Shown here: piece after piece, positions 13,182-50,937 of the stretch | Layout: the number at the start of each line of letters is the position of its first letter | How positions within the stretch are numbered: position 1 is the first letter of the stretch | NCBI RefSeq assembly: GCF_000710465.2 | Contig: NZ_JAIZ01000061.1 | Span: 1 to 64,000 of the forward strand | Direction: 5' to 3' | DNA from: Kitasatospora sp. MBT63 | Lineage (GTDB): Bacteria > Actinomycetota > Actinomycetes > Streptomycetales > Streptomycetaceae | DNA length: 64,000 nt | Position numbers and translations under genes: made by a program | Notes under the pieces: model-generated | Seen by the model: the letters and a program-made list of their open reading frames with translations, nothing else | Databases searched by the model: none | Told to the model about the DNA's origin: nothing

Positions 13182-13225
13182 GACCCACCCGTCACCACAC
13201 CCAATCACCCGTCCCTGGGGGGGAA

Positions 13226-30244: not shown

Positions 30245-30340
30245 ATGAAGATCGAGATAGTCCTGATGTCTGTTCCTCGGGTCGCGGCCGTGCGGGTTGC
30301 CAACCAGCGAATGGGCGGGACCTGGGGGCCACAGCGGTGA
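30245..30340 (+). CDS. Short peptide ORF (31 residues) coupled to the next gene
   Basis: A 31-codon frame with a good Shine-Dalgarno (GGAGG, seven bases before the ATG). Its stop overlaps the GTG of the next gene by four bases. The peptide begins MKIEIVLMSVP and ends GGTWGPQR. I cannot assign a function. It may be a translated leader or a peptide partner of the downstream protein. Confidence 0.45.
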   Translation: MKIEIVLMSVPRVAAVRVANQRMGGTWGPQR

Positions 30341-30771
30341 GCACGGCCGACGTCGCACCCCAACTTCCTGCCCTTGTCGCCGCCCGGGTACCGCGAGACG
30401 CATGGCCGACCATGAACGCAGCGAACCCCCTGCGGTTCGCGGTACTCGGCGCCCCGGTTCTTCACACCACGGCGCTCACCCGCCGCGGGCACCAGGCCGC
30501 CACCTACCCCGGGCCTGGTCTGATCGTCCCGGCTCCGGGACTACCGCTCACCGCGGGGCTCTTCAGCCTGGACGCGATCGATGACGCTGCCGCCGGGCAG
30601 GTCCGCCAGCTGAGCACGACCTTACCCACCGTGCCGGTGATCGTCATCGGGCGGCTCCTCGCCAAGGTCGGCGCCCCCACCCGCCTGAGCGCGGCCGCCG
30701 TCGCCGCCCGGCACAGCCTGCTGCCCGATCGTCCCACCGCTCCATCCCTGCAAGGAGAACGTCCAGCATGA
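30337..30771 (+). CDS. Hypothetical protein with a TTA codon
   Basis: A 144-residue protein of unknown function. The GTG start at 30337 overlaps the 31-residue peptide stop; the frame is open further upstream but that part is not protein-like. Leu96 is encoded by TTA (30622-30624), the rare codon read by the bldA tRNA in Streptomyces, so production should be developmentally controlled. It ends in an ATGA overlap with the SNF2 gene and so may set translation of that gene. Confidence 0.5.
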   Translation: MSTADVAPQLPALVAARVPRDAWPTMNAANPLRFAVLGAPVLHTTALTRRGHQAATYPGPGLIVPAPGLPLTAGLFSLDAIDDAAAGQVRQLSTTLPTVPVIVIGRLLAKVGAPTRLSAAAVAARHSLLPDRPTAPSLQGERPA

Positions 30772-36604: not shown

Positions 36605-37924
36605 ATGAGCGGGTCGGTGCCGGTGAGCGGCACCTCGCAGAGGAACACGGACCTCGAGAGGATCGTGCGGGACGAACTCAAATGGTCGATGTCGGGTTTC
36701 GCCAAGCGGGTTCGCGAGCGCTGCGCGGCCACCGGCCAGCCCCGGTCCGTGAGCACCAGCACGGTGTCGCGATGGTGCGCGGGGGCGCACCCGGGGCCGG
36801 ATCTGGCGGCCGCGGCGTGCTACGTCCTCACCCAGGCGTGCAAGCGCCCAGTGACACCCGAGCACCTGAGGTGGCCCCCCGAGGATGTGAGGGTCGCCGA
36901 GCAGGCGCTCCAGTACGGCGACCTGACCCACGCGGTGCGGATGCTGAGCCGACTGTGGCAGATGGACGCCGTCCCCGGAAGCGCGTCGGTACGAGCGATG
37001 CCGTTCGCCGCGACGCCCCCTGCGCTGGAGGCGCTGGTCATGCTGCCCGACCCCGAGATCGCAGGGTCCGGGCAGCGCCGGGTGACCGTGGCGGACATCG
37101 AGTTGCTGGACGCGCACACCGACCTGTACGGCAGGACGGACGCCCGGCACGGCGGCGGGCGGTTCCGCTCCGTGTTCGCCGGCTTCCTGGCCGCCCACGC
37201 TGTTCCGCTGCTCGAAGGCGGGTACAGCACCGGGCGCGGGCGGCGACTGCTCGGCAGCGTCGCCGACGCGGTGCTCGCGCTGGCGAGCATGGCCTACGAC
37301 GACCAACTCCCGGGCCTGGCGCAGCGGTACGACGTGCAGGCGATGCGGCTGGCGCAGGCGATCGGTGATCGCGGCCGGCTGGCGCGCGGCTGCATCCACC
37401 AGGCACGGCTGGCGGCGGTGCGGGGGGACGGCCGGGAGGTGCTGACCCACGCCCGCAGCGCGGTGGTCGCGGCCACCGGCTCTCCCGCGCTGGTGCGGGC
37501 GTATGTCGCGGTGACGGAGGCAAGGGCCTGGGCCTACAACGGGGACGCCGGCCAGTGCCGGGCGGCGGTGGAGCGGGCGCGGGCGGCGTTCAACCGGGCC
37601 GGGAGCGGGTCGGACCCGCGGTGGCTGGCGTGGCTGGACCGCCCGGAGCTGGAGGGCCAGGCCGCGTGGGCGCTGGCGATGGCCGGGCTGGTCAAGGAGG
37701 GCAGGCAGGCGCTGAAGGTGGCGATGGGCCTGTCGCCGGAGCGCACGCGCGACAGCGTGGAGCTGCTGATCACCGGTGCCGAGCTGGCCCGGCTGCGCGG
37801 GGACCGGGCGGAGCGCGAGGAGTTGCTGGCGAGGGCGAAGACGACGGCGCAGCACCTCAAGAGCCGCCGGCTGGCGCGGCGCCTGGCCGACGCCGCCGCG
37901 GGCGGCCCGCTCCACGACTTCTGA
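36605..37924 (+). CDS. HTH/TPR transcriptional regulator
   Basis: A 439-residue protein, third of this type in the window. The N-terminal region (LKWSMSGFAKRVRERCAATG, then STSTVSRWCAGAHPG) is a helix-turn-helix; TPR-like helices follow to the end. The start codon is 33 bases after the SWIM gene, so it may be co-transcribed with the SNF2/SWIM pair. It is also the nearest regulator to the peptide biosynthetic locus, with which it converges, and is a candidate for its control. Only 43 bases lie between the converging stops. Confidence 0.82.
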   Translation: MSGSVPVSGTSQRNTDLERIVRDELKWSMSGFAKRVRERCAATGQPRSVSTSTVSRWCAGAHPGPDLAAAACYVLTQACKRPVTPEHLRWPPEDVRVAEQALQYGDLTHAVRMLSRLWQMDAVPGSASVRAMPFAATPPALEALVMLPDPEIAGSGQRRVTVADIELLDAHTDLYGRTDARHGGGRFRSVFAGFLAAHAVPLLEGGYSTGRGRRLLGSVADAVLALASMAYDDQLPGLAQRYDVQAMRLAQAIGDRGRLARGCIHQARLAAVRGDGREVLTHARSAVVAATGSPALVRAYVAVTEARAWAYNGDAGQCRAAVERARAAFNRAGSGSDPRWLAWLDRPELEGQAAWALAMAGLVKEGRQALKVAMGLSPERTRDSVELLITGAELARLRGDRAEREELLARAKTTAQHLKSRRLARRLADAAAGGPLHDF

Positions 37925-37967
37925 CCCCGGGCCGACCGGGCCGGGCTGCCGGTGGTCAGGGAGCCGA

Positions 37968-38558
37968 TCAGGCCGCGGTGGAGCCGAGCCAGCTGAGCCT
38001 GGAGCGGACGTCGATCGCCGCACGGGGCCGGGCCGCCTCGCCGGGGACCGGGGTGCCGACGTACAGGTAGCCGAGCAGCTGCTCGTCGTCTCCGATGCCG
38101 AGGTGCTTGCGAACCTGCGGCGCCTCCGGGCAGGGGCCGCCGAACCAGACTCCGCCCCAGCCGCGCGCGTCCAGGAGCAGCAACAGGGTGATGGCCATCG
38201 CGGACGTCGCTGCCAGCTGCTCCCAGCGCGGGACGGTCGGGTGGTCGCGGGGCTGGAAGACGAGGCCGAGCATCAGCGGTGCGCGCAGGTGCTTGGCGGC
38301 GATCCGCTCGGCCAGGTCGGCGGTGGGCGCGGCCTCGGCGGCGGCTTCGCCGAGCCGGGCCCGGGCGTCGCCACAGATCGCGATCACGCGCCAGGGACGC
38401 AGCTGCCCGTGGTCGGGCGCAGTGGCCGCAGCCGCCAGCAGGTCGAGGAGTTCGGCCTCGCCAGGGGCAGGCTCGGTGAGGCGGATGGTGCTGCGCCGGG
38501 CGCGGATCGCCGCCTCGGTGCCGACCGCGGCGGGCCGGGAGTCGGAGGTGGAGGTCAC
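37968..38558 (-). CDS. Nitroreductase-family protein
   Basis: A 196-residue protein with the nitroreductase pattern: AIRARRSTIRLTEPAP at the N-terminus, LLAAAATAPDHGQLRPWRVI for the FMN-binding part, and GWGGVWFGGP with LGYLYVGTP towards the end. Members are FMN-dependent, often dimeric, reductases or oxidases; in peptide pathways they can dehydrogenate azolines. It starts at GTG overlapping the antiporter stop by four bases and is the last gene of the minus-strand run from the peptide gene. Confidence 0.82.
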   Translation of the reverse strand: MTSTSDSRPAAVGTEAAIRARRSTIRLTEPAPGEAELLDLLAAAATAPDHGQLRPWRVIAICGDARARLGEAAAEAAPTADLAERIAAKHLRAPLMLGLVFQPRDHPTVPRWEQLAATSAMAITLLLLLDARGWGGVWFGGPCPEAPQVRKHLGIGDDEQLLGYLYVGTPVPGEAARPRAAIDVRSRLSWLGSTAA

Positions 38559-39835
38559 CGGGCTGCTCCCGGGGTGCCGGTCTGCGCAGGGGCCGGCACC
38601 TCGGCGGGACCCGGGGTCGTCAGGTCGGGGGCGCCCCGGGTGAGGCGGTCGAGCAGGGGCGCAGTGGCGGCGGTGGTCACGACCGCCATGAGAACCATGA
38701 TCGTGAACAGGCCGGTGGAGATGACGCCGAGCTGGAGGCCGATGCCTAGGACGACGATCTCGGTGATCCCGCGGCAGTTCATCAGGGTGCCCATCAGCGC
38801 CGACCACCGCCAGTCGCAGCCGGCCAGCCGGGCCGCCCCGGCGGCCCCGATCCACTTGCCCGCCACGGCGACGGCCAGGACCAGAGCGGCCCAGCCCCAC
38901 TGGCCGGCCGGGAGGTGGGCGAGGTCGGTGTGCAGGCCGAGGTCGACGAAGAACAGCGGGAGCAGCACCGGGACGAAGACCGCCTGGAGGCGGGCGGCGG
39001 TGCGCTCGACGGCCGGCAGGCCGCGCGGCACCGTCGCGCCGAACAGGAACGCTCCGAAGGCGGGGTGGACGCCGATCCGGTCGGTGGCGCACGCGGCCAG
39101 GAGCAGCCCGGCGACCAGCAGCACCGTCACCAGGTCATCCGAGCTGCGGGCGACGCGCTCCAGCATCCACTTCAGCACCGGGCGGGCCAGGGCCAGGGCT
39201 GCGGTGAGGGCAGCGGTGAACGCGAGGGCGGTGAGTGCATCCAGCGGGGAGCCGGCGGTGGCCAGGGCGGTGACGGCGATGAGCAGGCACCAGGCGAGCG
39301 CGTCGTCGGTGGCCGCGCACGCGAGGGCGAAAGCGCCCAGGCGCGTGGTGGCCAGGCCCCGGTCGGTGAGGATCCGGGCGAGGACGGGGAACGCGGTGAC
39401 GGACAGCGCGGTGGCGACGAACAGGACGAACGGCAGCCGCTGCACGCCGGGCGGGGCCAGGGCCGGGTACATCACGACGGCGAGCCCGGCACCGAGGCCG
39501 AGCGGCAGCAGGATGCTCCCGGCGGCGACGGAGGCCACGGCGCGGCGGGTGGTCCGCAAGGAGCGGAAGTCGAGTTCCAGGCCGACGAGGAAGAGGAACG
39601 CGAGCAGGGCGATGTTGCCGAGCACCGAGGTGTAGGGCAGGACGGTGGCCGGCAGCAGGGCGTGCTGGACACCGGGGGCGACCCAGCCGAGCAGGGAGGG
39701 GCCGAGGAGTATACCGACGGCCATCTCGCCGATGACGGGCGGCTGGCCGAGGCGGCGGGCGGCCCAGCCGCCGGCCTGGCAGGCCAGCACCACGGCCGGG
39801 ACGGCGAGGAGGACGAGCGAGAGCGGAGTGGACAA
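38555..39835 (-). CDS. CPA2-type cation:proton antiporter
   Basis: A 426-residue integral membrane protein with about a dozen hydrophobic segments. Landmarks are LGQPPVIGEMAVGILLGPSL, FLFLVGLELD, and ATDDALAWCLLI, matching Na+/H+ or K+/H+ antiporters of the KefB/NapA type; the ATDD element is the family ND/DD site. It starts at TTG with GGAGA seven bases upstream. It sits at the end of the biosynthetic run and could serve ion balance, product export or resistance. Confidence 0.85.
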   Translation of the reverse strand: MSTPLSLVLLAVPAVVLACQAGGWAARRLGQPPVIGEMAVGILLGPSLLGWVAPGVQHALLPATVLPYTSVLGNIALLAFLFLVGLELDFRSLRTTRRAVASVAAGSILLPLGLGAGLAVVMYPALAPPGVQRLPFVLFVATALSVTAFPVLARILTDRGLATTRLGAFALACAATDDALAWCLLIAVTALATAGSPLDALTALAFTAALTAALALARPVLKWMLERVARSSDDLVTVLLVAGLLLAACATDRIGVHPAFGAFLFGATVPRGLPAVERTAARLQAVFVPVLLPLFFVDLGLHTDLAHLPAGQWGWAALVLAVAVAGKWIGAAGAARLAGCDWRWSALMGTLMNCRGITEIVVLGIGLQLGVISTGLFTIMVLMAVVTTAATAPLLDRLTRGAPDLTTPGPAEVPAPAQTGTPGAAR

Positions 39836-39952
39836 CAGGGTCTCCGGGCGAAGGGCCGGCCTGGAGTGCGGGCTCCGAGAGCGGCCGGGCAGGGATCGAC
39901 ATGCAGGGCGGGCAGCTGCTCGACGGCAGCGGCGTCGAGGCCGGGCGTTCGG

Positions 39953-41056
39953 TCAGGCCGTGGGGAACAGGGCCTGGTAGAGCGGGTCAGCCCGGAAGGG
40001 GCCGCCGTGGTGGGGGGAGGTCAGCGAGGCGTGGTGCTCCTGGCCGCCGGTGGTGCGCAGCGTGGCGGAGAGGTGGTAGTCCGGGTGGATGCCGTCGTCG
40101 CTGAGTGCTGTTTCGATGGTGAGTTCCAGGACGTCTCCGGGTGCGACCGGCACGGGCTGGTCGAAGAGCGGGAAGTAGATGCTGGCCCAGTTGGTCTTCA
40201 TGCGCAGCGCGTCGAGCGGTTCCTCGTCGGGCAGGCACCAGAGGTTGAGCCAGGTGAGCACGCCGTCGACGTGGCCGGCCCGGGTGATGGCCAGGCGGGT
40301 GGTCGTGCGCTGCTGCGTGCGCAGGTCGCCGTTGAAGTCGAGCACTTCGACGGGCCGGCCCTCGCAGAGGAGGGCGTCGGTGTTGGGGTTCTCGATGCGC
40401 AGCCGGATGTCGAAGGGGCTGCCGTGCCAGTCGAAGATGTGCTGCAGGTACGGCAGGGCCTCCTCGGCGAACGCGACGGGCTGGCCGGGCAGTAGGCCGG
40501 GGAGGTGGACGGGGGCGGCGAGGGTCACCGCGCGGTGCGGCACCACCAGGCCCCCGGGCGCCAGGTGGCGGTCGCGGGCGTCGGTCAGGACGGCTGCCGC
40601 GCCTTCGGCGCCGGCCAGCGAGCCGATGATCTCCGCCACGCAGATGTCGGCCCTGGGTGCGAACTGGAGGGCGGTCGACTCGCCGTGCAGCAGCGTGATC
40701 ATGTCGCGCTCGTCGAGGGTCTCCAGGGTGCCGGCGGCCGTGTGGAAGGCGTCCGCGATGACCTCGACGGCCACCGCGGTGCGGGCTCCGGCCTGCACGC
40801 TCTCGCGGGCCCACAGGAGGTCCTCGCCGGTGCCGATGTCCAGGACGCGCCGGCCCGGGGCGAGCTTGGCCAGCGCCGCGAGGAAGCGCTGGTTGCGCTC
40901 GTGGTCGGTGGTCATGGTCGAGTAGAGGAACCCGTCGTAGATGGGGTACTCGCCGACCGTCGGCCACAGGGCCGCCCTGCCTTCCCGCCCGGGCTCCGGG
41001 TCCACCTCCACGAGCACGGTGTGTCCGTGTACCTCAAGCTCTCGGGTCTTGTGCAT
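39953..41056 (-). CDS. Protein-arginine-methyltransferase-like enzyme
   Basis: A 367-residue class-I PRMT-like enzyme. The entry helix YPIYDGFLYSTMTTDHERNQ, SAM loop VLDIGTGEDLLWA, the two-glutamate loop AEIIGSLAGAEG (two Glu nine apart), and TNWASIYF in the place of the Thr-His-Trp loop are all visible. Known members methylate arginine guanidine nitrogens on proteins; the bacterial relative SznE methylates free arginine in streptozotocin synthesis. Context beside other arginine enzymes and an Arg-repeat peptide suggests methylation of the peptide or of free Arg. AAAGG precedes the ATG. Confidence 0.85.
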   Translation of the reverse strand: MHKTRELEVHGHTVLVEVDPEPGREGRAALWPTVGEYPIYDGFLYSTMTTDHERNQRFLAALAKLAPGRRVLDIGTGEDLLWARESVQAGARTAVAVEVIADAFHTAAGTLETLDERDMITLLHGESTALQFAPRADICVAEIIGSLAGAEGAAAVLTDARDRHLAPGGLVVPHRAVTLAAPVHLPGLLPGQPVAFAEEALPYLQHIFDWHGSPFDIRLRIENPNTDALLCEGRPVEVLDFNGDLRTQQRTTTRLAITRAGHVDGVLTWLNLWCLPDEEPLDALRMKTNWASIYFPLFDQPVPVAPGDVLELTIETALSDDGIHPDYHLSATLRTTGGQEHHASLTSPHHGGPFRADPLYQALFPTA

Positions 41057-41102
41057 GGTCAGCCTTTCGCGGGTGTTCGGACGGTCGGGCGGGGTCTGCG
41101 CT

Positions 41103-41160
41103 CGGTGCTCGGCCGCCGGTCGCCGCAGTTTCGGCGGCCGGAAGCGGTGCTCGGCCGCCG
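41103..41160 (-). repeat. Intercistronic hairpin and 16-base direct repeat
   Basis: Between the pentein and methyltransferase genes, CGGCCGCCG (41110-41118) pairs with CGGCGGCCG (41132-41140). The 16-base sequence CGGTGCTCGGCCGCCG occurs twice, at 41103-41118 and 41145-41160. The spacer is 168 bases, long for this operon, and may act as an attenuator or RNA-processing site. Confidence 0.55.
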
Positions 41161-41224
41161 AGCGGGCGCGGCGGCTCGGCCCGGCGGCCGTGCTTGCCGG
41201 GCTCGGGTGGTGCGCGGTCGGGGG

Positions 41225-42097
41225 TCAGGTGCGCAGCAGGGGCAGGGTGGTGCAGCGCAGGGAGCCGGGGATGCGGGTGACCTCGGAGTAGTCGACGGCC
41301 AGGACCTCGAGTCCGAGGGCGGTCAGGGCGGCGGCGATGCGGTCGCTGCCGGCGGCGACGACGACCGTCATGGGGCCGATGGCCAGGACGTTGACCTGGA
41401 CGGCGCGGGCCTCGGCGTCGGTGACGGGGACGAGGTGGTCGAAGTGGGCGTCGAACCAGCGGTTCTGGTCGGCGGTGAAGACCTCGCGGTGGATCAGGGC
41501 GGTGCCGGGCGCGACCACGGCGAGGTGGTCGTCGAGGTGCACGATCCCCTTGACCGCGAAGGGCACCGGGACGACTTCGCGGCCGATGCCGTGCCGGGCA
41601 AGGGCGTCCTGGAGGGCGGCCGCGCCGTCGGGGCTGGTCTCCTCGCTGAGGCCGACGAGGACCCGGGTGGTGTCGGGGAGCAGGACGTCGCCGCCCTCGA
41701 TCGTGCCGCGCGCGAGGTCGACGGGCTGGACGCCGAGGGCGGGGTCGGCGAGGGCGTCGGCCTCGGGCAGGCGGTGCTCGGAGTTGAGGCGGGCGCGGAT
41801 GAGGAGGTGGTCGACGGCGAAGGCGATGTCGCGGGGGTAGTGCTGCACGGAGCAGCCCGGAGCGTCGGGGAGCAGGACCACGTCGGTGCCACGGTCGCGG
41901 AGCAGGGCGATCAGCCGGTCCTGCTGTGCGCGGACGGCGCCCGGGTCGTAGGTGCCCCAGGTGCTGGTGGCCTGCTGGCGGGCGAGGACCGGGTGGACGC
42001 CGGGGCCGTCCAGGGGGCGGGTGAAGTCTCCTGCGTGGCGCATGGCCACCCGCTCGAGGGTGCCGTACTCGGTGGCGACACGGACAGCGTGGTCCAC
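41225..42097 (-). CDS. DDAH/arginine-deiminase-like pentein hydrolase
   Basis: A 290-residue guanidino-modifying enzyme. Motifs in order are YPRDIAF (acidic substrate-binding), GTIEGGDVLL, KGIVHLDDHLAVVAPG (catalytic His), and the C-terminal GSLRCTTLPLL with the nucleophilic Cys, as in dimethylarginine dimethylaminohydrolase and arginine deiminase. It would convert an arginine or methylarginine guanidine to citrulline plus an amine. It starts at GTG, GGAGG five bases upstream. Placed directly before the methyltransferase gene, it fits an arginine-modification route. Confidence 0.85.
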   Translation of the reverse strand: MDHAVRVATEYGTLERVAMRHAGDFTRPLDGPGVHPVLARQQATSTWGTYDPGAVRAQQDRLIALLRDRGTDVVLLPDAPGCSVQHYPRDIAFAVDHLLIRARLNSEHRLPEADALADPALGVQPVDLARGTIEGGDVLLPDTTRVLVGLSEETSPDGAAALQDALARHGIGREVVPVPFAVKGIVHLDDHLAVVAPGTALIHREVFTADQNRWFDAHFDHLVPVTDAEARAVQVNVLAIGPMTVVVAAGSDRIAAALTALGLEVLAVDYSEVTRIPGSLRCTTLPLLRT

Positions 42098-42168
42098 GGG
42101 TCCTCCAGGGATCGGTGCGGGCGCGGTGGTGTGCGGGGTGGAGGCGGTCCCGGCACGGCCCGGTGGGT

Positions 42169-42208
42169 CTGCGGGGGCGGGCGCTGTCAGGCGCGCCCGC
42201 CCCCGCAG
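42169..42208 (-). terminator. Perfect 16-bp hairpin between GFA and pentein genes
   Basis: CTGCGGGGGCGGGCGC (42169-42184) and GCGCCCGCCCCCGCAG (42193-42208) pair fully around an eight-base loop. It sits eleven bases after the GFA gene stop. With no U-tract it may be a partial terminator or an mRNA 3'-end stabiliser rather than a full stop. Confidence 0.65.
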
Positions 42209-42218
42209 GGCCCGTGGG

Positions 42219-42704
42219 TCAGCCGGCCGCGCCGGGCTGGGCGCACTGGGCGAGCCAGGGCGCGGCCTCGGCGACCCGGTTGAGGTTCGTGGGAACCAGG
42301 GCCGGGTCGGTGCCGTAGTCGTCCAGGGCGGTGGCGAGGAAGCCGATCATCGTGTCGTCGCCGTAGTCGCGGGCGGCGAGGTGGGTTCCGCACCTGCCGC
42401 AGAATCCTCGGGCCGTCTTGCCGGGGTAGGTGTCGAACCAGGTCGGCTCACCGCCCTCGCCGGTCCACTCCAGCCCGTCCGCCCGGAACCCGACCCACCA
42501 CTGGAACGGCGCGCCGGAGCGCTTGGCGCAGTGGGCGCAGTTGCACACGTGCGGGTCGTCCACCGGCCCGGTGACGGTGAAGCGGATCCAATCGCACAGG
42601 CAGCCGCCGGAGCGGACCTTGAGGTCGGGGCCGGTTGCGGCAGCGACGATGGCAGTGGCAGTGGCAGTGGCGGTGGCGGTGGCGGTGACGACGGCGTCGG
42701 ACAC
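42219..42704 (-). CDS. GFA / CENP-V-type zinc-binding protein
   Basis: A 161-residue protein with the zinc ligands of the GFA family: GGCLCDWIRF, HVCNCAHCAKRSG and FCGRCGTHLA. The founding member binds formaldehyde-glutathione, though direct enzyme activity is disputed. A role in handling formaldehyde released by oxidative demethylation of methylated arginine would fit this operon but is inference. The N-terminus has a run of alternating Thr-Ala (about residues 8-16) produced by a 6-base tandem repeat. GTG start overlaps the preceding stop by one base. Confidence 0.8.
   Translation of the reverse strand: MSDAVVTATATATATATAIVAAATGPDLKVRSGGCLCDWIRFTVTGPVDDPHVCNCAHCAKRSGAPFQWWVGFRADGLEWTGEGGEPTWFDTYPGKTARGFCGRCGTHLAARDYGDDTMIGFLATALDDYGTDPALVPTNLNRVAEAAPWLAQCAQPGAAG
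42651..42686. repeat. Six-base tandem repeat inside the GFA gene
   Basis: Three copies of GGCAGT (42651-42668) are followed by three of GGCGGT (42669-42686) on the plus strand. They encode an alternating Thr-Ala tract at the protein N-terminus. Six-base units keep the frame, so copy-number changes would alter only linker length. Confidence 0.75.
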
Positions 42705-43567
42705 TAGTTCAGTTCCCTTGCACGGTAGGCCAGTTGGGTCCACCAGTGTGCCATCGCGCAGAAGATCTGGAGGAAGCCCTCCAGGGCCTGCGGCAGGTCG
42801 AGGTGGAAGAGGTCACTCTGACGGACGAACCGGGCCAGGCCCTCGATGTGGGCCTCCTCCACGCTCATGCCGCCGACCTGCGCGGCCTCGTGGCCCTCGT
42901 CGAGGTGGAGCCGGTAGTAGTAGTCCAGGTTCTTCAGCTGCGCGCCGCTGGACTGGATGGTCAGCTCGCCGTACCGGTCGGTGATGGCGCGCAGGATCTC
43001 CGTCTCGGCGACGGCGACGCCCTCGGTGGCGTAGTAGCCGCCGGCGATGAGGCCGGTCATGTGGCTGTTCACCAGGACCTGGTGCTGGAGGACCAGCTTG
43101 GCGGTCTCGTCGGCAGGGACGTGGCCGTTAACGAGCAGGCCGAGGTCGGCGAGCAGCGCGCGGGTGTAGAGGATGTAGTGGGCGGGGACCTTGCCGGGCT
43201 CGCCGCCCTCCTCCAGGAAGTTGCGGTCGAACTCGTGCCCCAGCGCCGGGCAGGAGCCGTAGACCTGGCTGGCCGCCAAGCGCAAGAACTGCGCGTTGTG
43301 CCGGGCGAAGACCGCCAGCTCCGCGATGTACATGCGGGCCTGCGCCGCGGTGAGGGTCGCGGGGTCGACCAGGGAGCGGATCTGCCGGTAGACCGCGTCG
43401 ATCATGGGCCTGAGGTGCTTGTCGACGAGGTCGTCGCCGCTGTCGCGGGTGCCCTGGAGGGTGGCGTGGATGTAGCCGCGGGTCTCCGGGTTCGCGGCCA
43501 GGTACACCTCGACGAGGCTGGTACCGCGCAGGCTGTCGAGCGTGGGCGCGGTGGCGGTGGTGGTCAC
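42704..43567 (-). CDS. Haem-oxygenase-like di-iron oxygenase (HDO)
   Basis: A 287-residue helical protein. The Glu/His pair in AELAVFARHNAQFLRL and the YYYRLHLDEGHEAAQ helix with LH..DEGH match the ligand pattern of HDO-type di-iron oxygenases. Well-studied relatives include the central domain of SznF (N-oxygenation of methylarginine) and other N-oxygenases or desaturases. The GTG start overlaps the JmjC gene stop by four bases, so the two enzymes are made together. In this setting arginine N-oxygenation is a reasonable guess. Confidence 0.8.
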   Translation of the reverse strand: MTTTATAPTLDSLRGTSLVEVYLAANPETRGYIHATLQGTRDSGDDLVDKHLRPMIDAVYRQIRSLVDPATLTAAQARMYIAELAVFARHNAQFLRLAASQVYGSCPALGHEFDRNFLEEGGEPGKVPAHYILYTRALLADLGLLVNGHVPADETAKLVLQHQVLVNSHMTGLIAGGYYATEGVAVAETEILRAITDRYGELTIQSSGAQLKNLDYYYRLHLDEGHEAAQVGGMSVEEAHIEGLARFVRQSDLFHLDLPQALEGFLQIFCAMAHWWTQLAYRARELN

Positions 43568-44847
43568 GCGGTCTCCTCGGGCGTGGTGGTGAGGCTCAGG
43601 CCGCCGGTGGCGCCGAGCGTGCGGATCGCGGCGAGCACCTGCGGGTCGTCGGGCAGGGTGGTGGGGCCGGCGTTGAGGCGCTCGACCAGGTCGGGGGTGA
43701 GGACGGCGGGGTCGGCCGCCGTCTCGCAGCCGCGCAGGAACGCCTGCTCGCCGGTGACGATCAGCCGGTAGGGGGCGCGGACAGCGACGCTCGTGCCGGG
43801 CCCGAGCGCGACGGCGGCGAACGCCGCGGCGACCTCGTCCCGGGCGAGGTCGAGTTCGGTCTGCTGCCAGCCGCCGTTGCTCAGGACGGTGTACCACCGC
43901 TGGTGGGCGTGCTGGGCGGCGGCGGCCGTCGCCCGCTCGGCGGCGGCGGTGAACGCGTCGGCGGCCACCGCGCCCAGGCGGCGGGCGAGCTCGCCCGGGC
44001 CGCCGGCCAGCGGCTGCATCGGGGAAGGCCGGCCGGCGTCGGTGTCGGGCTCGCTGGCCAGGAGGTTCTCCAGCAGGTCGGGCGCGATCCAGCCGCGGGC
44101 GACCGCGGCGTCGGGGAAGGTGTAGAGGGGGATGGCGACGGAGATGCTGAACTCGTCCTGGCGGCCGACGTGGAAGACGCGCTCGGGCAGGAACAGGGCG
44201 TCGCCGGGCTCCAGGGCGAAGTGCTGGCCGTGTTCCAGCAGCCACGTGTAGTCGCCGTACAGCGGCTCGCTGCCGCCGGTGAGCTTGCGGTACTCCTCGG
44301 CCGGCCAGCAGTAGAAGTCCTTGGTGCCGGGGCCCTGGTGGGTGAGGACCGCGTTCTCGTAGCCCTCGTGCACGCCGAACGCGGTCCCGCTGTAGTTGCC
44401 GACGAAGGCGACCAGCTCGGCGCCGCCGGCCGGGACGCCCCAGCCGTCGATCAGCGCGCCGACGAACTCGCCCAGGCCCGCGGCCAGCGGCTCGGAGACG
44501 CTCTCCAGGGTGTTGAGGACCAGGCTGAACCGGTCGGCGCCGATCTGCTCCTGCATCCACGCGACGAAGTCGCCCTGCGGCCAGGCGTCGGCGGCCAGGA
44601 CCTTGTCCACCAGGTCGGGGCGGTGCTCCTCGCCCACGTACACCCGGGCGTTCGCGGTGATCTCCACTCCGGCGGCGTGGGCCCGCCGGATCGCGGCGAA
44701 GCCCTCGAGCACGGCGGCGGGGTTCGCCGCCGACGGGGGGATGATGCCCTTGAACAGGTACGGGCGCGTCATGCCGTCGGTCCTGGCGGGCAGGGTGTCG
44801 GTCCAGAACTCGCGGGGCGGGGGCCACTGTCCGGGGGTGCTGCTCAT
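43564..44847 (-). CDS. JmjC/cupin-type oxygenase-like protein with an HxG variant
   Basis: A 427-residue protein. The double-stranded barrel is visible as FVGNYSGTAFGVHEGYEN, then THQGPGTKDFYCWP, and the closing strand LEPGDALFLPERVFHVG with the distal His. In ribosomal-arginine hydroxylases of this fold the first motif is His-x-Asp; here the corresponding position is Gly (HEG). Loss of the carboxylate is known in iron/2-oxoglutarate halogenases, though a degenerate or differently liganded site is equally possible. The C-terminal 180 residues (LARDEVAAAFAAVALGP) are helical. AAGGAG lies ahead of the ATG. Confidence 0.75.
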   Translation of the reverse strand: MSSTPGQWPPPREFWTDTLPARTDGMTRPYLFKGIIPPSAANPAAVLEGFAAIRRAHAAGVEITANARVYVGEEHRPDLVDKVLAADAWPQGDFVAWMQEQIGADRFSLVLNTLESVSEPLAAGLGEFVGALIDGWGVPAGGAELVAFVGNYSGTAFGVHEGYENAVLTHQGPGTKDFYCWPAEEYRKLTGGSEPLYGDYTWLLEHGQHFALEPGDALFLPERVFHVGRQDEFSISVAIPLYTFPDAAVARGWIAPDLLENLLASEPDTDAGRPSPMQPLAGGPGELARRLGAVAADAFTAAAERATAAAAQHAHQRWYTVLSNGGWQQTELDLARDEVAAAFAAVALGPGTSVAVRAPYRLIVTGEQAFLRGCETAADPAVLTPDLVERLNAGPTTLPDDPQVLAAIRTLGATGGLSLTTTPEETA

Positions 44848-44923
44848 GGCCGGGTACTCCTTCGGTTTCGCGGCCGCGCGGGGGCGGCCGGGTGGGCGTG
44901 CACGGGGTGCGGGCCGGGGCGGA

Positions 44924-46063
44924 CTACGCGACGAGGTAGTCCTCGGGGCCGCCGTCGCGGACGGTGTCGAGGGTGAAGCAGTGGTGCCCGCCGCCGAACA
45001 GGCGCCGGTGGCGGTGCCGGACCGGGACGACCGTGAAGCCGCGCTGCTCCAGCACCTTGATCAGCTCCGGGTAGAGGGAGTTGACGACGACCGTGCTCTC
45101 GTCGATCGACAGGACGTTGATGTCGATGTACCGGGACGCGGTGGGAACGACGAACCCGAACCCGTCGTAGTCGGGCTCGGGCACCGAGCTGGGCGGCGGG
45201 TAGATCGCCTCCCAGGTCCGCATCGCCTCCGGCAGGAGGTCGAGGTACTGCGGGTCGCGCAGCAGCATCAGGCCCGGGCGCAGGGGGACGACGATGGAGT
45301 CGACGTGGTTGTCGGCGATCCCGGGCAGCCGGTGCCAGCGCAGCTGGGGGAAGGTGCGGGCCAGCCACCGGAAGGCGAGCTCGTGATTGTGGTTGGCGAC
45401 GTTGACGAGGACGTCGCGGCCCAGGCGGACGCACTGCGCGCCGTCGAAGACCATCTCCAGGCCCAGGCCGTCGATGGGCAGGGCGTGCTCGCCGGCCATC
45501 GCCGCGGTGACGTCGATGCCGTTGCGCTCGAAGTAGGCGGTGTCCAGGGAGTGGGCGGCGAGCGCGGGGCGCGGCATGGCCAGCCAGTTCGAGCCCTGCT
45601 CGAAGTAGCGGGTGAAGAGCGCCTTGAGGTGGTCGTTCTCGAAGATGCGGCTGCGGATGTGCGGCGCGGTCTCCACGATCGTCTCCCCGAGGACGACCGC
45701 GTTGTCGCGGACGTTCAGCGGCGGCGTCGCACCGCTGCTCCACCACGGGGAGGAGACCTGGACGTCCTTGCCGGGGGCCGAGGGGCGCAGCACGCGCACC
45801 CCGCAGCCGGCCAGGGCGTCCGCGAAGCCGGTGACGTCCTCGATCAGCTCGTCGACGATCTGCTGCGGGATCGTCAGCTGCCGCTGGCCGTCGGGCAGGT
45901 GCGGGGCCACGTTCTCGTAGTAGAACAGGCGCCAGCTGCTGTCGGCGTCGTGCGCGGTGTAGTGGTCGGCGCGGCCGACGACGACCTCGCGCAGCCGGGT
46001 GAAGTCGTCGTAGCTGTGCGCACCTTGGGTGGGCGGGTCGAGCTGGGACTGGGGCTTGGTCAT
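44924..46063 (-). CDS. Arginine:amine amidinotransferase (GATM family)
   Basis: A 379-residue amidinotransferase. The catalytic triad positions are conserved: Asp in MVFDGAQCVRLGRDVLV, His in DNHVDSIVVPLRPG, and Cys in GGGHHCFTLDTVR. Family members move the amidino group from arginine to glycine, inosamine or lysine. Acceptor here is unknown; the Lys residues of the repeats or a small amine are candidates. A GAGGAGG precedes the ATG. It lies between the desaturase-like and JmjC genes. Confidence 0.88.
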   Translation of the reverse strand: MTKPQSQLDPPTQGAHSYDDFTRLREVVVGRADHYTAHDADSSWRLFYYENVAPHLPDGQRQLTIPQQIVDELIEDVTGFADALAGCGVRVLRPSAPGKDVQVSSPWWSSGATPPLNVRDNAVVLGETIVETAPHIRSRIFENDHLKALFTRYFEQGSNWLAMPRPALAAHSLDTAYFERNGIDVTAAMAGEHALPIDGLGLEMVFDGAQCVRLGRDVLVNVANHNHELAFRWLARTFPQLRWHRLPGIADNHVDSIVVPLRPGLMLLRDPQYLDLLPEAMRTWEAIYPPPSSVPEPDYDGFGFVVPTASRYIDINVLSIDESTVVVNSLYPELIKVLEQRGFTVVPVRHRHRRLFGGGHHCFTLDTVRDGGPEDYLVA

Positions 46064-46177
46064 GGGTGGCCGCCTCCTCGGCGGCGGGTGCCGGCGCGGG
46101 CCGGGCGGGCAGGGGATGCCGCCCGGACCGCGCTGCGGCGGGCCGGTCGTTGGTGGTGAAGAAACGGGGCTGAGCGG

Positions 46178-47254
46178 TCAGGCGGCCGTGCGTTCGGCGG
46201 CCGGGGCCTGGAGCGGTGCGGGCCGGGCGGTGAGACGGGCGATGACGTCCTCGATCACGCACGGCACGTCGGGGGTGGAGCGGCGGCGGAAGAAGTAGCC
46301 GGAGCACCACGGCACCTCGCTCCAGCGCTCCACGCGCTCGGCCAGGAGGGCGGTGGCCTCGGGCAGACGACGCCAGGGGATCTTGGGGCACCAGTGGTGC
46401 ACGGGGTGGTGCATGTCGTCGAGGTGACCGCCGAGCAGGTGCCGGGTGAGCCAGTGCGAGGACCAGCCGCGGGTCTGCAGCAGCACATCGTCGTCCTCGA
46501 TCAGGCCGGCGTGGTTGCCGAGGTCGGTGATCCAGGTGACCGTCGGCCGCACGAGCACCAGCGGGACCAGCCAGTACAGCACCAGGTCGCCGAGGACGCC
46601 GAAGGACCAGCACACGGTGGCGACGGCGGCCCACGCCGCCGCGCGGGCGGCCGGCGCCCAACGGCTCTCCCGCGGACCGCGGGTGACCAGCGTCCGCAGC
46701 GCCGACGTCGGCAGCCGCCACAGCGCGGCCCCGCCGATGACCCGCACCACGAACGCGGTCCTGGTCATCGGGGCGCGGACGGTGTGCAGACCTCCGGCCC
46801 GGTAGGACTGGAACATCGGATCGGCTCCGCTGCCGAGCTGCGCGTGGTGCACGCCGTGGGTGGCCCGGTAGGGCCGCAGCCCCTCACCGAGCAGCCCGGT
46901 CAGCAGGTACCCCACCAGGCGGTTGCCGCGCGCGGTGGCCAGCAGCTTGGCGTGGACGCACTCATGTGCCAGGTTCGAGAGATGCCGCTGGCGCACCCCG
47001 ATGTACAGCACGGCGAGCAGCGGGCCGACGACGTGCCCCACCAGGGAGCCGGCGAACCCCGCCGCGACGATCGCGCCGACGTCCAGCGCGACGTCCCGCA
47101 GGCCGACGCTCGGGGCGCCGCACAGGCTCTCCAGCTCGCCGATCAGCTCCGGCCCCAGCGCCTGCCGGACCGGACCGGACGCGCCGGTCGAGTGCCGGGT
47201 GCGCCTCGGTGTCTTCTCGCGCCGGGGTATCGACCACCGGCCGGGCCTGCCCAT
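46178..47254 (-). CDS. Membrane fatty-acid-desaturase-like di-iron protein
   Basis: A 358-residue membrane protein. The three His boxes are HECVHAK, HGVHH and HHPVHH, separated by hydrophobic segments (VALDVGAIVAAGFAGSLVGH; VATVCWSFGVLGDLVLYWLV). Such enzymes desaturate or hydroxylate lipids or other substrates; some act on peptides or amino acids. I prefer ATG 47254 because AAGGAGAG lies just upstream; an earlier ATG at 47272 has no such site. It is the first gene after the peptide gene, across a hairpin. Confidence 0.85.
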   Translation of the reverse strand: MGRPGRWSIPRREKTPRRTRHSTGASGPVRQALGPELIGELESLCGAPSVGLRDVALDVGAIVAAGFAGSLVGHVVGPLLAVLYIGVRQRHLSNLAHECVHAKLLATARGNRLVGYLLTGLLGEGLRPYRATHGVHHAQLGSGADPMFQSYRAGGLHTVRAPMTRTAFVVRVIGGAALWRLPTSALRTLVTRGPRESRWAPAARAAAWAAVATVCWSFGVLGDLVLYWLVPLVLVRPTVTWITDLGNHAGLIEDDDVLLQTRGWSSHWLTRHLLGGHLDDMHHPVHHWCPKIPWRRLPEATALLAERVERWSEVPWCSGYFFRRRSTPDVPCVIEDVIARLTARPAPLQAPAAERTAA

Positions 47255-47306
47255 CTGCTCTCCTTCGAACATCGCTGAGGGCTGGGTGTCGGCTTTCCGT
47301 GCACCG

Positions 47307-47340
47307 CTGTCGGTGGGCGGGGCGCCCCGCCCACCGACAG
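47307..47340 (-). terminator. Perfect 34-base palindrome after the peptide gene
   Basis: CTGTCGGTGGGCGGGGC (47307-47323) is followed directly by its exact reverse complement (47324-47340), 31 bases after the peptide stop. It can form a 15-17 bp hairpin. Placed between a precursor gene and its enzymes, it probably acts as a partial terminator, so that the peptide is made in excess over the enzymes. No U-tract follows. Confidence 0.85.
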
Positions 47341-47370
47341 CAGCACGTCAGCCGATCAGGACGATCGGGG

Positions 47371-47505
47371 TCAGGCGGCGGCGCCCGGCCGCATGCCGAG
47401 CTTGATGCCCGGGCGCATGCCGAGCTTCACGGAGGCGCCGGGGCGCATGCCGAGCTTCACGGTGCCGTTGCCCGGGCGCATGCCGAACTTCAGGGTCTGG
47501 TCCAT
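47371..47505 (-). CDS. Repetitive peptide precursor: four K-[L/F]-G-M-R-P-G units
   Basis: A 44-residue peptide. After MDQTL come KFGMRPG (6-12), KLGMRPG (17-23), KLGMRPG (27-33) and KLGMRPG (35-41), joined by NGTV, ASV and I and ending AAA. Each unit is preceded by a hydrophobic residue (L, V, V, I). There is almost no leader. The ATG has AGAGGAG upstream; an in-frame TTG at 47625 would add a 40-residue leader but has no ribosome site. The only Arg residues are in the repeats, and the following operon is rich in arginine-modifying enzymes, so this is probably the substrate. It is too short and repetitive for a folded enzyme. Confidence 0.85.
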   Translation of the reverse strand: MDQTLKFGMRPGNGTVKLGMRPGASVKLGMRPGIKLGMRPGAAA

Positions 47506-47652
47506 GGGTTCTCCTCTCGGGCCGCGGGCATGCCGCAGCCACGCGTGGTGAATCGGATGGTCGAGCCGCAGACGAGCAGGCTCGAAGGAGCCGGCCGGGG
47601 CGCTGCGCCGTAGCGCCGGTGACAAACCGTCGCGCCGAGTGGCCGTGCCATC

Positions 47653-47734
47653 ACGCTAGGACCGGACCGGGGGCGGCGGCAACGGGTCGTGCCGTTGCGT
47701 CGGATGCGCCGGACCGTTGCGTCCCCGTTGCGTC
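47653..47734 (-). promoter_or_regulatory. Promoter with phased direct repeats for the peptide operon
   Basis: On the minus strand a TTGCCG (47682-47677) and a TAGCGT (47658-47653) are 18 bases apart, a fair match to a Streptomyces vegetative promoter; transcription would begin about 140 bases before the peptide ATG. Upstream of the -35 lie three copies of CCGTTGCGTC (plus-strand 47692-47701, 47714-47723, 47725-47734), spaced by 22 and 11 bases, i.e. whole helical turns. An inverted half (GCAACGG, 47679-47685) covers the -35. Repeats of this phasing are typical of activators such as SARPs. The rest of 47506-47943 shows no gene. Confidence 0.7.
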
Positions 47735-47943
47735 CACCATGCCGATGACCTGGGCAACCGCCTGCCGGTGCGGCCGGAATCGCCGACACCGTCCACAGGC
47801 CGGAGCCCTGGGTCGATGCGCGCGGTCTTCTGTCCCGCGGCAGCACGCGACTACCTTGAGGCGCTCCAGGGGATCCGCTCCGCCCGGATCGCCACACCAT
47901 GGTCAACTCCCCTTACCTGCAACCCTGTTGAGAGGAAGTGCGC

Positions 47944-48837
47944 ATGTCCGCGCTGCCCGACCCCATTCGTCTCAAGGCCGACGTGCTGCACGGCCTGCGG
48001 GCCCTGCTGCACGAGGAGCGCTTCACCGAGGTGGTCACCCCCGTCGCCCGCCGGGCCGACCTCGGGCCCGGCCGCCGTGTCCCCGCCGCCCTCCACGAGG
48101 GCCGGCACCTGCGCGCGATGATCGGCCCGGCGCTGCGCGTCAACGTCCGCGCCGACCTCCCGCGGGTGTACGAGATCGGCCCCTGCTTCCGCCCCGAGGC
48201 CCCCGATGCCCTCCACGCCTCCGAGTTCACGATGCTCGACCTGTACGCCGCCGGCCTGACCTTCGAGGGCCTGATCGGCCTCGCCTGGCGCCTGGTCGGC
48301 CCGCACCTGACCGCCTACACCCCCGACCGCCTCTCGATCACCGACCACGTCCGCGACGCATTCGGTATCGACCTGCGCACCGAGCCCCTCGGTGACCTGC
48401 ACACACGTATGGCCGCCCGGATCGGCGCCGATGCGGGCGAGCCGTTCCGCGACGTCCTCGGCCTCTACATCGCCCGCGAACTCGAGGCCGGTACCGCGGG
48501 CCGCGCGGTGTTTCTCACCGACTACCCGACCGGCGGCGACGAGCCCTGCGCCCGCCTGGCCCCCGGTACCACCGCCGTCCTGGAGCGGTTCGAGCTGATC
48601 GTCGACGGCGTCGAGCTCGTCCACGGCTACACCGACGAGACCGACACCGCGGCCTTCACCGACCGCGCCAAGGCCGTCGGCCTCTACGACGCCGAGCAGC
48701 AGCTCGCCCTGGACGCCGTCGAAGCCGGAGCCGTCCCCGCGGACACCGCCGGCCTCGGCATCGGCATCGAGCGCCTGTGCGCCGTCTCCGCAGGGCTGCG
48801 CGACATCACCCCCTTCCTCCAGTCCCCCCAGTTCTGA
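47944..48837 (+). CDS. Truncated lysyl-tRNA-synthetase-like (EpmA/PoxA-type) ligase
   Basis: A 297-residue class-II synthetase core without the N-terminal tRNA anticodon-binding domain. Motif 2 is VYEIGPCFRPEAPDALHASE followed by FTMLDLYAA; FLTDYPTGG is the usual substrate-loop segment; motif 3 is GLGIGIERL. EpmA/PoxA proteins of this size transfer lysine-type amino acids to a protein side chain instead of to tRNA. Here it may aminoacylate the repeat peptide or an amine. The ATG at 47944 has AGAGGA seven bases upstream. It is divergent from the peptide gene. Confidence 0.85.
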   Translation: MSALPDPIRLKADVLHGLRALLHEERFTEVVTPVARRADLGPGRRVPAALHEGRHLRAMIGPALRVNVRADLPRVYEIGPCFRPEAPDALHASEFTMLDLYAAGLTFEGLIGLAWRLVGPHLTAYTPDRLSITDHVRDAFGIDLRTEPLGDLHTRMAARIGADAGEPFRDVLGLYIARELEAGTAGRAVFLTDYPTGGDEPCARLAPGTTAVLERFELIVDGVELVHGYTDETDTAAFTDRAKAVGLYDAEQQLALDAVEAGAVPADTAGLGIGIERLCAVSAGLRDITPFLQSPQF

Positions 48838-48870
48838 CCCCGGCGCATCCACCCTGGACCTGGAGGCACG

Positions 48871-49791
48871 ATGGACCTCGCGATCACCCCGCTGCCCGGC
48901 GGATTCGGCGCCCGCGTCGAGACCGACCTCGCCCGCACGGCCGGCCCCGCCGCAGCGCGCACGCTCACCGATCTCCTGCACCAGCACCGGGTGCTGGTGC
49001 TGCCCGGCCAGCACCTCAACCACGCCGACCTGCTCGCCGCGGCCGCCCTGTTCGGCGACGTCGACACCGCCACCGACCGCCGGTACACCGTCCCCGGGTT
49101 CCCCGGCCTGACCGTCGTCTCCAACATCCACGACCAGGACGGCCAGCCGATCGGCATCTACGACGGCGACGACGAGGAGGAGTGGCACGCCGACAACTCC
49201 TTCAAGCCGCAGCTCACCACCGCCACCCTGCTCTACTCGGTCATCACCCCCGACGAGGGCGGCGAGACCCGCTTCGCCGACGCCACCCGCGCCTACGCGA
49301 ACCTTCCGACCGACCTCCGGGAGCGGGTCGACGCTCTGAGCGCCGTCCACTCCGCCCAGCACCTGGGCACCCTGCAGGCCGACGCCGCCGGCGGCCGCTC
49401 CTCCACCCAGGCCGGCACCCTCGCGCGCCTGCCCGAGGTCATCCACCCCCTCGCCCCCATCCACCCCGTCACCGGCACCCGCACCCTGCTGCTCGGCTCC
49501 ATGGTGATCCCCCGCATCGAGGGGCTGCCCGACGCCGAAGGCCAGGCGCTGCTCGACGACCTCCTGACCCGCGCCACCGGCCCCGACTACCTCTACACCC
49601 ACCGCTGGAGCCAGGGAGACCTGGTCATCTGGGACAACCGCGCGGTGCTGCACACCGCCTCCCCCTGCGACAGCTCCCGCCACCAGCGGCTGCTGGTCCG
49701 CGCCGCCGTCCGCCAGGCGACACGCCGCCCAGGTCCTCCCGACGGGGGAATCCCCACCGAGTCGCCCACCACCGCGCCGACCCACCACTAG
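48871..49791 (+). CDS. TauD/TfdA-family Fe(II)/2-oxoglutarate dioxygenase
   Basis: A 306-residue oxygenase. The iron site is WHADNSF (His-x-Asp) with the distal His in RAVLHTASPCDSSRHQR and the 2-oxoglutarate-binding Arg shortly after. GETRFADATRAYANLP is family-typical. It hydroxylates an unactivated carbon; Lys or Arg side chains would fit the context. It follows the ligase by 33 bases with GGAGG before the ATG, so both form one transcription unit. Confidence 0.88.
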   Translation: MDLAITPLPGGFGARVETDLARTAGPAAARTLTDLLHQHRVLVLPGQHLNHADLLAAAALFGDVDTATDRRYTVPGFPGLTVVSNIHDQDGQPIGIYDGDDEEEWHADNSFKPQLTTATLLYSVITPDEGGETRFADATRAYANLPTDLRERVDALSAVHSAQHLGTLQADAAGGRSSTQAGTLARLPEVIHPLAPIHPVTGTRTLLLGSMVIPRIEGLPDAEGQALLDDLLTRATGPDYLYTHRWSQGDLVIWDNRAVLHTASPCDSSRHQRLLVRAAVRQATRRPGPPDGGIPTESPTTAPTHH

Positions 49792-49800
49792 GGTGACCGA

Positions 49801-50937
49801 GTGAGTTCCCAAGTTCCCCTAAAGGACAAGGCCTTGAGCCCAGAGCGGATCGCCCGGATCGGGCGCGAGATGCAAACGGCCTGCCCCGCCTTCGACGCCG
49901 CCTCCTTCACCACCCAGGTCACCGCCGACCTTCCCCGCCTGGAACTCAAGGCCCGCATCACCCGCACCGCACAGGGCCTGCACCAGCATCTGCCCCTCAC
50001 CGGGCCGCCCGCCCTCGACACCGTGCTGCGCTCCCTCCCGGCCACTCCGGAGGCCGCCGGCGCCGAGGTCGACTTCGGGCTCTACACCTACGCCCCGCAC
50101 TCCGCGTACGTCGCCGCCCACCACCTCCACCCCGAGACGCTCGACCAGGCCCTCGCCGCGTTCGCCACCATCACCCCGTACTTCTCCGCAGAGGACGCCG
50201 TCCGCACCGCCCTCACCTCCTTCCCCGAGCAGACGCTCGCCGCCGCCGCCGGGTGGGCCACCGCGTCCGACCACCGGGTACGGCGCCTGGCCAGCGAGGC
50301 CACCCGACCGCACCTGCCCTGGTCCGTGAGCGCCGGCCTGCCCGTCGACGCTGCCCTCCCGCTGCTCGACCTGCTGTACGCCGACACCAGCCGGTTCGTG
50401 ACCACCTCGGTCGCCAACCACCTGCGCGACATCTCCCGCACCCTGCCCGACCTCGTCCTCGACACCCTGACCCGGTGGCGCACCGAGGGACGCGCCAAGC
50501 CCGCCGAGCTCGCCTTCATCACCCGCGAAGCACTGCAACTGCGACTCAAGGCCGGCTGGGCACCCGCCTACACCGCCCTCGGCTACGACCCGCAGGCCGC
50601 CGTCAGCGTCGGCCCGATCCGCCTCGACCGCACCGACTACCAGCTCGGCGACAACCTCTCCTTCGAGGCAGACCTCACCGCGCCCACCGACACCCCGGTG
50701 CACGTGATGTACGTCCTGACCCGCACCGGCCCCGACGCCCGGACGAGGGAGAAGGTCTCCCACCTCACCCGAGCCACCGTCAAGGCCGGTGCACCACTGC
50801 GCCTGGCCAAGGCCCATGCCCTGCCGTCCACCGGCAGAGCCGCCCTCACACCGGGCAGCTACCACCTCTCACTCCAGGTCAACGGCCGCCGCCACCCCCC
50901 GGCGTTGCTCCGCATCACCAGCGACCGTTCCAACTGA
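49801..50937 (+). CDS. HEAT-repeat DNA-alkylation-repair-like protein (AlkD type)
   Basis: A 378-residue protein made of helical HEAT-like repeats: WATASDHRVRRLASEATRPH, FVTTSVANHLRDISRTLPDL and VLDTLTRWRTEGR match the AlkC/AlkD group, which excise alkylated bases. The C-terminal third (VGPIRLDRTDYQLGDNLSFE) is beta-rich. It starts nine bases after the TauD gene, so may be part of that unit; repair of alkylation could protect a producer of an alkylating product. Confidence 0.75.
   Translation: MSSQVPLKDKALSPERIARIGREMQTACPAFDAASFTTQVTADLPRLELKARITRTAQGLHQHLPLTGPPALDTVLRSLPATPEAAGAEVDFGLYTYAPHSAYVAAHHLHPETLDQALAAFATITPYFSAEDAVRTALTSFPEQTLAAAAGWATASDHRVRRLASEATRPHLPWSVSAGLPVDAALPLLDLLYADTSRFVTTSVANHLRDISRTLPDLVLDTLTRWRTEGRAKPAELAFITREALQLRLKAGWAPAYTALGYDPQAAVSVGPIRLDRTDYQLGDNLSFEADLTAPTDTPVHVMYVLTRTGPDARTREKVSHLTRATVKAGAPLRLAKAHALPSTGRAALTPGSYHLSLQVNGRRHPPALLRITSDRSN

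Follow-up and report, generated by a model that had tools for sequence, protein, structure and literature searches.

A repeat-peptide gene conserved with JmjC and HDO oxygenase genes in Streptomycetaceae and Nostoc: a candidate RiPP-type pathway

Kitasatospora sp. MBT63 possesses, on contig NZ_JAIZ01000061.1 (positions 1 to 64,000, referred to below as the window), a gene cluster that opens with a gene for a 44-residue peptide consisting of four K-[L/F]-G-M-R-P-G units. Sequence comparison shows this peptide to be a real, selected gene, which forms a conserved module in two phyla with the genes for a JmjC-type oxygenase, a haem-oxygenase-like dimetal oxidase (HDO) and a GFA-family zinc protein. 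The cluster probably encodes a pathway of the RiPP type (ribosomally synthesized and post-translationally modified peptide), in which an almost leaderless multicore precursor would offer each K-x-G-x-R-P-[G/D] unit as a substrate site. Possibly the contig belongs to a plasmid, as do the relatives.

The precursor gene (47371..47505, minus strand) starts with ATG, is preceded by the Shine-Dalgarno sequence GAGAGGAGA, a strong ribosome-binding site, and encodes MDQTLKFGMRPGNGTVKLGMRPGASVKLGMRPGIKLGMRPGAAA. As the original prediction had claimed from the DNA alone, it is the first gene of a minus-strand run of arginine/guanidine and oxygenase genes. The leader is almost nil (MDQTL), and the A-rich tail is short. 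In the 9.85-Mb genome the coding repeat pattern is unique to this locus, and a reversed control pattern gave 0 matches. The units of the window precursor differ synonymously (CCG/CCC, CGC/CGG), and in the related genes, too, synonymous codons differ between units while the protein motif stays. Together with the conservation of the protein motif across phyla, these codon differences point to selection on the peptide rather than on a DNA repeat.

The unit can be written as Lys-x-Gly-x-Arg-Pro-Gly/Asp. Among 166 units collected with the pattern [KQ]xGxRP[GD], which itself fixes Arg and Pro, the fourth position is Met in 151 cases, Val in 10 and another residue in 5 (the substitutes across units being V, I, T, Q, E and R), whereas the second position is widely variable. 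Lys is found in 164 units and Gln in two, the Gln occurring in units of locus L018. If the stretches are counted as G-x-x-P-[GD] instead (n=170), Pro is preceded by Arg in 164 cases and by Thr in six, all six lying in an N-terminal unit-like GMTPD stretch. Arg and Pro are the most constrained residues of the repeat, Lys being less so than Arg.

The original prediction had proposed to check whether the precursor co-occurs with the enzymes. It does, strongly so, within the Streptomycetaceae as well as between phyla. All 12 loci that were matched in other genomes through the amidinotransferase possess a repeat peptide of 4-10 units, in each case between the divergent gene for a ligase resembling lysyl-tRNA synthetase (LysRS) and the desaturase gene; in 9/12 the window unit K-L-G-M-R-P-G is replaced by K-x-G-M-R-P-D. 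In total, peptide homologues occupy the equivalent place in 27 other loci, including two Nostoc plasmids. Among 395 genomes of the family, the tandem repeat pattern and the JmjC gene (at least 61% identity) were found in the identical six genomes, and neither was found alone. Streptomyces plasmid records added 11 further cases of peptide and JmjC together; nine of the ten examined are recorded as linear. Note that some sampled genomes seem, by sequence, to represent organisms already covered by the named loci (G101 corresponding to L015 and G269 to L018), so the loci are not all independent. Among 396 genomes spread over the phylum, true matches were restricted to two family members already known. 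Near-identical loci differ in unit number (seven in L021, nine in L025), a difference to be expected if the repeats of a multicore precursor expand. One Streptomyces precursor (L109), with GVRPD, GQRPD and GERPD units, is intermediate between the Nostoc and Streptomyces types.

Full-length JmjC homologues (34-36% identity) are present on plasmids of Nostoc carneum NIES-2107 and Nostoc commune HK-02. On both plasmids a repeat peptide with L-K-x-G-V-R-P-D units is encoded directly upstream of JmjC, HDO (41-43%) follows directly downstream, and GFA (33-36%) is located nearby. The N. commune peptide is MNQESLNALKAGVRPDALKVGVRPDALKVGVRPDALKVGVRPDA, and its precursor sequence contains MNQESLNALKAGVRPD; the N. 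carneum peptide begins with MMNQEAFNGLKTGVRPDGLKTGVRPDG, and its fifth unit is out of register. This fifth unit (LKNWCSPRR; L095, 14729-14902) resembles a frame-shifted copy of the repeat. The N. commune cluster contains, in addition, a LysRS-like gene, an ornithine/arginine-type pyridoxal phosphate-dependent decarboxylase gene and a gene for a further protein that looks like a 2-oxoglutarate (2OG) oxygenase by eye and has no Pfam match. In N. carneum there are an amidotransferase gene and one for an adenylation-thiolation-reductase protein of the non-ribosomal peptide synthetase (NRPS) type, and the LysRS-like gene is absent from the stretch examined. Genes for the amidinotransferase (AGAT), the DDAH-like pentein, the GntB-like hydroxylase and the PRMT-like methyltransferase are missing from the Nostoc clusters. 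The conserved core is therefore not the arginine/guanidine enzyme set of the original prediction; AGAT, DDAH and PRMT are later or optional, as Nostoc keeps only the peptide, JmjC, HDO and GFA (and, in one case, the LysRS-like gene). The ancestral core thus consists of repeat peptide, JmjC, HDO and GFA, often accompanied by the LysRS-like ligase, with amidinotransferase, GntB-like hydroxylase, DDAH-like pentein, TauD-family oxygenase and antiporter as actinobacterial additions and PRMT as an optional one.

The JmjC/ROX-like 2OG-Fe oxygenase (43564..44847, minus strand) has the metal motif H160-x-G162 ... H226, in which the distal H226 is kept, and its residues E164 (+4 from the first His) and K176 are invariant. 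A Foldseek search with its predicted model (mean pLDDT 62) retrieved YcfD as the best match (E 1.8e-12), followed by MINA53, NO66 and FIH. YcfD is the arginyl hydroxylase of ribosomal protein L16, and JMJD5 is a human arginyl C3-hydroxylase (PMC5862942). In VIA-align, this pLDDT 62 model was superimposed on YcfD over residues 19-420 with Z 11.9 and a root-mean-square deviation (rmsd) of 13-18; the JmjC cores, including that of JMJD5 (Z about 10.8), gave Z of about 11 and rmsd 3.5-4.4. The HDO (42704..43567, minus strand) matches Pfam DUF3865 with 39.0 bits against a gathering score of 31.6 and has the HDO fold, which places it in the DUF3865 branch; its model is closest to an uncharacterised Nostoc punctiforme protein (3b5o/3b5p), with CADD next. 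No mention of the DUF3865 family was found in the open literature. The GFA-family protein is encoded at 42219..42743 (minus strand, start codon uncertain).

On this basis the following pathway can be drawn. JmjC and HDO would act in succession on one side chain per repeat, most likely the Arg before Pro and less likely the Lys, yielding an oxidised residue (hydroxylated, dehydrogenated or C-C-cleaved), and GFA may handle a small carbonyl or another by-product. In Actinobacteria the GntB-like protein, AGAT, the DDAH-like pentein, TauD and sometimes PRMT might further process either the residue with the guanidine group or a free guanidino amino acid. As no cluster-borne protease was found, host general peptidases are proposed to release several copies of a small product, and such a release of several units per precursor is plausible. 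The LysRS-like ligase could activate an amino acid and attach it to the product, in the manner of the ATP-grasp ligase of pheganomycin synthesis; in the N. carneum cluster the NRPS-like protein would stand in its place. The antiporter may serve export or self-protection. The original prediction had proposed tailoring of the Arg and maybe the Lys of the repeats: modification of Arg is favoured by residue conservation and by the YcfD-like fold of the model, and that of Lys now seems less likely.

Several observations weigh against this reading. HxG replaces HxD in every aligned JmjC member, with Gly at the carboxylate position, so that the HxD...H triad of YcfD is incomplete. The kinship of the JmjC model to YcfD is at fold level only (pLDDT 62, full-length rmsd above 12), and nearly equal scores are reached by JmjC enzymes with other target residues; with scores thus tied, the substrate cannot be read from them. 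No RRE-like Pfam or NCBIfam match was obtained among the scanned cluster proteins, no leader peptide is recognisable (units begin about 3-25 residues after Met), and no protease could be recognised in the cluster. For AGAT, DDAH and GntB relatives, free arginine is a known substrate. Furthermore, a Streptomyces sp. NBC_00445 plasmid (L098) carries at 11983-13326 a JmjC gene of 54% identity without the peptide, HDO or other cluster genes; it may be a remnant or an independent use. On the other side, the locus combines what characterises RiPP pathways in general, i.e., a small gene-encoded precursor within a conserved cluster with putative modifying enzymes.

A more specific version of the RiPP-type pathway can be put forward tentatively, at odds clearly lower than those of the general one. 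The cluster would then represent a new two-phylum RiPP class, in which a JmjC enzyme with HxG, i.e., with a ligand position left vacant like that of two-His hydroxylases and halogenases, acts together with an HDO to remodel or cleave the Arg or Lys side chain in every repeat, after which the tRNA-synthetase-like ligase extends the product. These would be two oxygenases not known to work as a pair. As AspH and FIH D201G show, two His can be enough for hydroxylation, and halogenases use a similar vacancy (PMC6817910). BesC, an HDO, cleaves the lysine side chain and releases formaldehyde (PMC13108848). By analogy, C-C cleavage of the BesC type would release formaldehyde here as well, which could conceivably explain the ever-present GFA gene.

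Two other explanations are improbable, to a similar extent. According to the first, the peptide is a scaffold or carrier: the LysRS-like ligase loads an amino acid on the ε-amine of the repeat Lys, as EpmA does on EF-P, a small molecule is built and released, and the peptide is reused. The ligase (47938..48837, plus strand; PF00152) indeed consists of the class II catalytic domain only, without the anticodon domain, its best NCBIfam match is EpmA/genX, it is present in N. commune, and the nearly always present Lys would provide many sites per peptide. However, its score against EpmA TIGR00462 is 82.9 bits (cut-off 286.9), and its lysine-pocket signature is altered to H-G-Y-x-D. Moreover, the N. 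carneum stretch examined lacks the gene, Lys gives way to Gln in L018 units, and the constraint on Arg-Pro would be left unexplained. According to the second, the enzymes make an arginine-derived small molecule from free arginine, and the peptide serves as a signal, in immunity, in regulation or as a partner of HDO/JmjC. AGAT-, GntB-, DDAH- and SznF-type enzymes are known on free arginine (NCBIfam and PDB names; for SznF, PMC13108848). Yet in Nostoc the peptide stays with JmjC and HDO though the AGAT, DDAH and GntB-like genes are missing, the variation from 4 to 10 units is unexpected for a signal or partner peptide, and the fold relatives of JmjC act on protein side chains.

It is very improbable that, as in streptozotocin synthesis, PRMT methylates arginine and HDO and JmjC then N-oxidise and rearrange it to an N-nitroso product: PRMT with its double-E loop, HDO and a cupin-fold partner are all present, but about half of the clusters, and those of Nostoc, lack PRMT, and HDO and JmjC are separate proteins, the latter matching ROX/JmjC hydroxylases. 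The SznF comparison made in the original prediction is therefore to be taken as an analogy only.

Returning to the cluster itself, the gene order claimed in the original prediction was confirmed by domain and PDB matches. After the precursor there follow on the minus strand the genes for a membrane di-iron desaturase/hydroxylase (46178..47254; PF00487, His boxes conserved), which is a distant GntB relative (93.8 bits against GntB NF041365, cut-off 380), the amidinotransferase (44924..46063; StrB1/AGAT-like, PDB best StrB1, E 1.2e-40, catalytic Asp/His/Cys kept), JmjC, HDO, GFA, the DDAH/ADI-like pentein (41225..42097; catalytic His and Cys kept), the PRMT-like methyltransferase (39953..41056; PDB best yeast RMT1), a CPA2 cation:proton antiporter (38555..39835; Pfam/NCBIfam) and a nitroreductase-family protein (37968..38558; domain search). 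Divergent from this run, on the plus strand, are the LysRS-like gene and the gene for the TauD-family 2OG-Fe oxygenase (48871..49791; HxD kept). The conserved block is wider than the extent given originally (37968-49791); it spans about 36605-50937 and includes on the plus strand a gene for a conserved 439-aa protein (36605..37924; annotated as transcriptional regulator in relatives, no Pfam match) and one for a HEAT/DNA-alkylation-like protein (49801..50937), which is conserved as part of the actinobacterial block. On the right, the APH and NUDIX genes lie outside the block that relatives share. Two large helicases, one of the HA-domain/DEAD type and one SNF2 with DUF3670, adjoin the cluster (27989-35363). 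With rare single-member exceptions, catalytic residues are kept across members in the amidinotransferase, pentein, desaturase, TauD, LysRS motifs 2 and 3 and the PRMT double-E loop; the PRMT gene, which about half of the related clusters lack, cannot be central. The claim that the standard RiPP hallmark enzymes are absent stands: Pfam and NCBIfam scans of the cluster proteins revealed no YcaO, TfuA, lanthionine synthetase, radical SAM or ATP-grasp protein.

Between precursor and enzyme genes there is a strong GC-rich hairpin (47301..47346, minus strand; minimum free energy -69.5, z -8.0 versus shuffles). Most relatives, among them the two Nostoc loci (z -3.4 and -3.5), likewise have a stable hairpin 3' of the precursor; in L018, L082 and L026 it is weaker and does not clearly exceed chance. 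No T-tract terminator was found 3' of the hairpin, and an Rfam search gave no match. Possibly, the hairpin is an attenuator or mRNA stabiliser that would give more precursor than enzyme message.

Some of the related clusters (L104, L108, L111, L020) are cut within or just past the HDO/GFA genes, in L104 and L108 directly followed by integrase genes, which suggests insertion of a mobile element and clusters in decay. Other candidates were rejected. JmjC matches of 24-31% identity in other Streptomycetaceae (L084-L094) are accompanied by no other cluster enzymes save distant NUDIX/DDAH matches, and no comparable repeat peptide turned up when most of these loci were roughly scanned for repeats. 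Three other DUF3865 loci (G265, G306, G061) likewise showed no comparable repeat peptide, and nitroreductase, in 2/3, is the sole shared gene; in G306 and G061 (L121 and L122) the DUF3865 genes lie beside genes resembling by eye those of the hydrogenase maturation factors HypE/HypF, an unrelated context. Single pattern matches elsewhere (e.g., L028, L031, L036) lack the neighbouring enzymes and were read as chance, and matches to the Nostoc peptide on Azospirillum and E. coli plasmids are parts of large unrelated proteins. A Pantoea ananatis plasmid (L097, 8799-14160) encodes a distant JmjC (about 29%) together with arginase-family, second JmjC_2, GNAT and MFS genes, which may form a further pathway of arginine modification; a comparable repeat peptide was not seen there. 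Nothing was found in viral contigs scanned with the Nostoc HDO or in phages scanned with the Nostoc JmjC.

If the proposed RiPP-type pathway is correct, this family of ribosomal products would probably escape genome-mining tools that look for YcaO, radical SAM, lanthionine or ATP-grasp enzymes, and an HDO and a YcfD-like JmjC enzyme act on one peptide. The 44-residue peptide with two or three small enzymes, as in Nostoc, would then be a compact, easily expressed system for oxidation of peptidyl Arg/Lys, and the repeat motif with the enzyme pair can be used for finding further members. In the open literature there was no relevant mention of the repeat motif (subscription journals may differ), and no description of this gene set was found.

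The closest known system is thiovarsolin (varAYTOLPS, Streptomyces varsoviensis), whose repeat precursor needs the HDO-type VarO for the Cβ-Cγ double bond of its Arg; the pathway includes amidinotransferase and ligase genes and, in the absence of a dedicated protease, host peptidases have been proposed (PMC6511847). The window likewise has an Arg/Pro repeat precursor, an HDO-type protein (VarO being likened by description), an amidinotransferase and a ligase. However, VarA has a leader and APR/GPR units and is thioamidated by YcaO/TfuA, whereas the window has the K-x-G-x-R-P motif without YcaO, TfuA or ATP-grasp, and with JmjC, GFA, GntB-like, DDAH-like, TauD and LysRS-like genes beyond the thiovarsolin set. 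In pheganomycin synthesis, the ligase PGM1 links a ribosomally made peptide with a guanidino amino acid (PMC8939145, PMC6511847). An amidinotransferase is common to both systems, but PGM1 is an ATP-grasp enzyme, the candidate ligase of the window is class II tRNA-synthetase-like, and the oxygenase sets differ. With YcfD and JMJD5 the window shares the JmjC core, peptidyl Arg being the substrate of the known enzymes. The alignment with YcfD runs over the whole multi-domain ROX layout (JmjC, helical and C-terminal domains), though at rmsd 13-18. The window protein differs in HxG with the invariant Glu at +4, in the HDO partner and in the putative substrate, a small repeat peptide instead of a folded cellular protein. 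In BipG/BpmG (PMC12707348, PMC12257519) a JmjC enzyme acts on an Arg-derived residue in a RiPP, BipG hydroxylating Orn in biphenomycin (PMC12707348), but it does so after MNIO and arginase and on a single core, with neither HDO nor repeats. SznF combines HDO with a cupin-fold partner and GntB is a hydroxylase of arginine, but both act on free amino acids, and SznF is one fused protein where the window has two separate genes. In outline, then, the pathway resembles those of thiovarsolin and pheganomycin while lacking the enzymes that define them (YcaO/TfuA and ATP-grasp, respectively); ribosomal multicore peptides are already known, and there is a fair chance that this cluster founds a new class.

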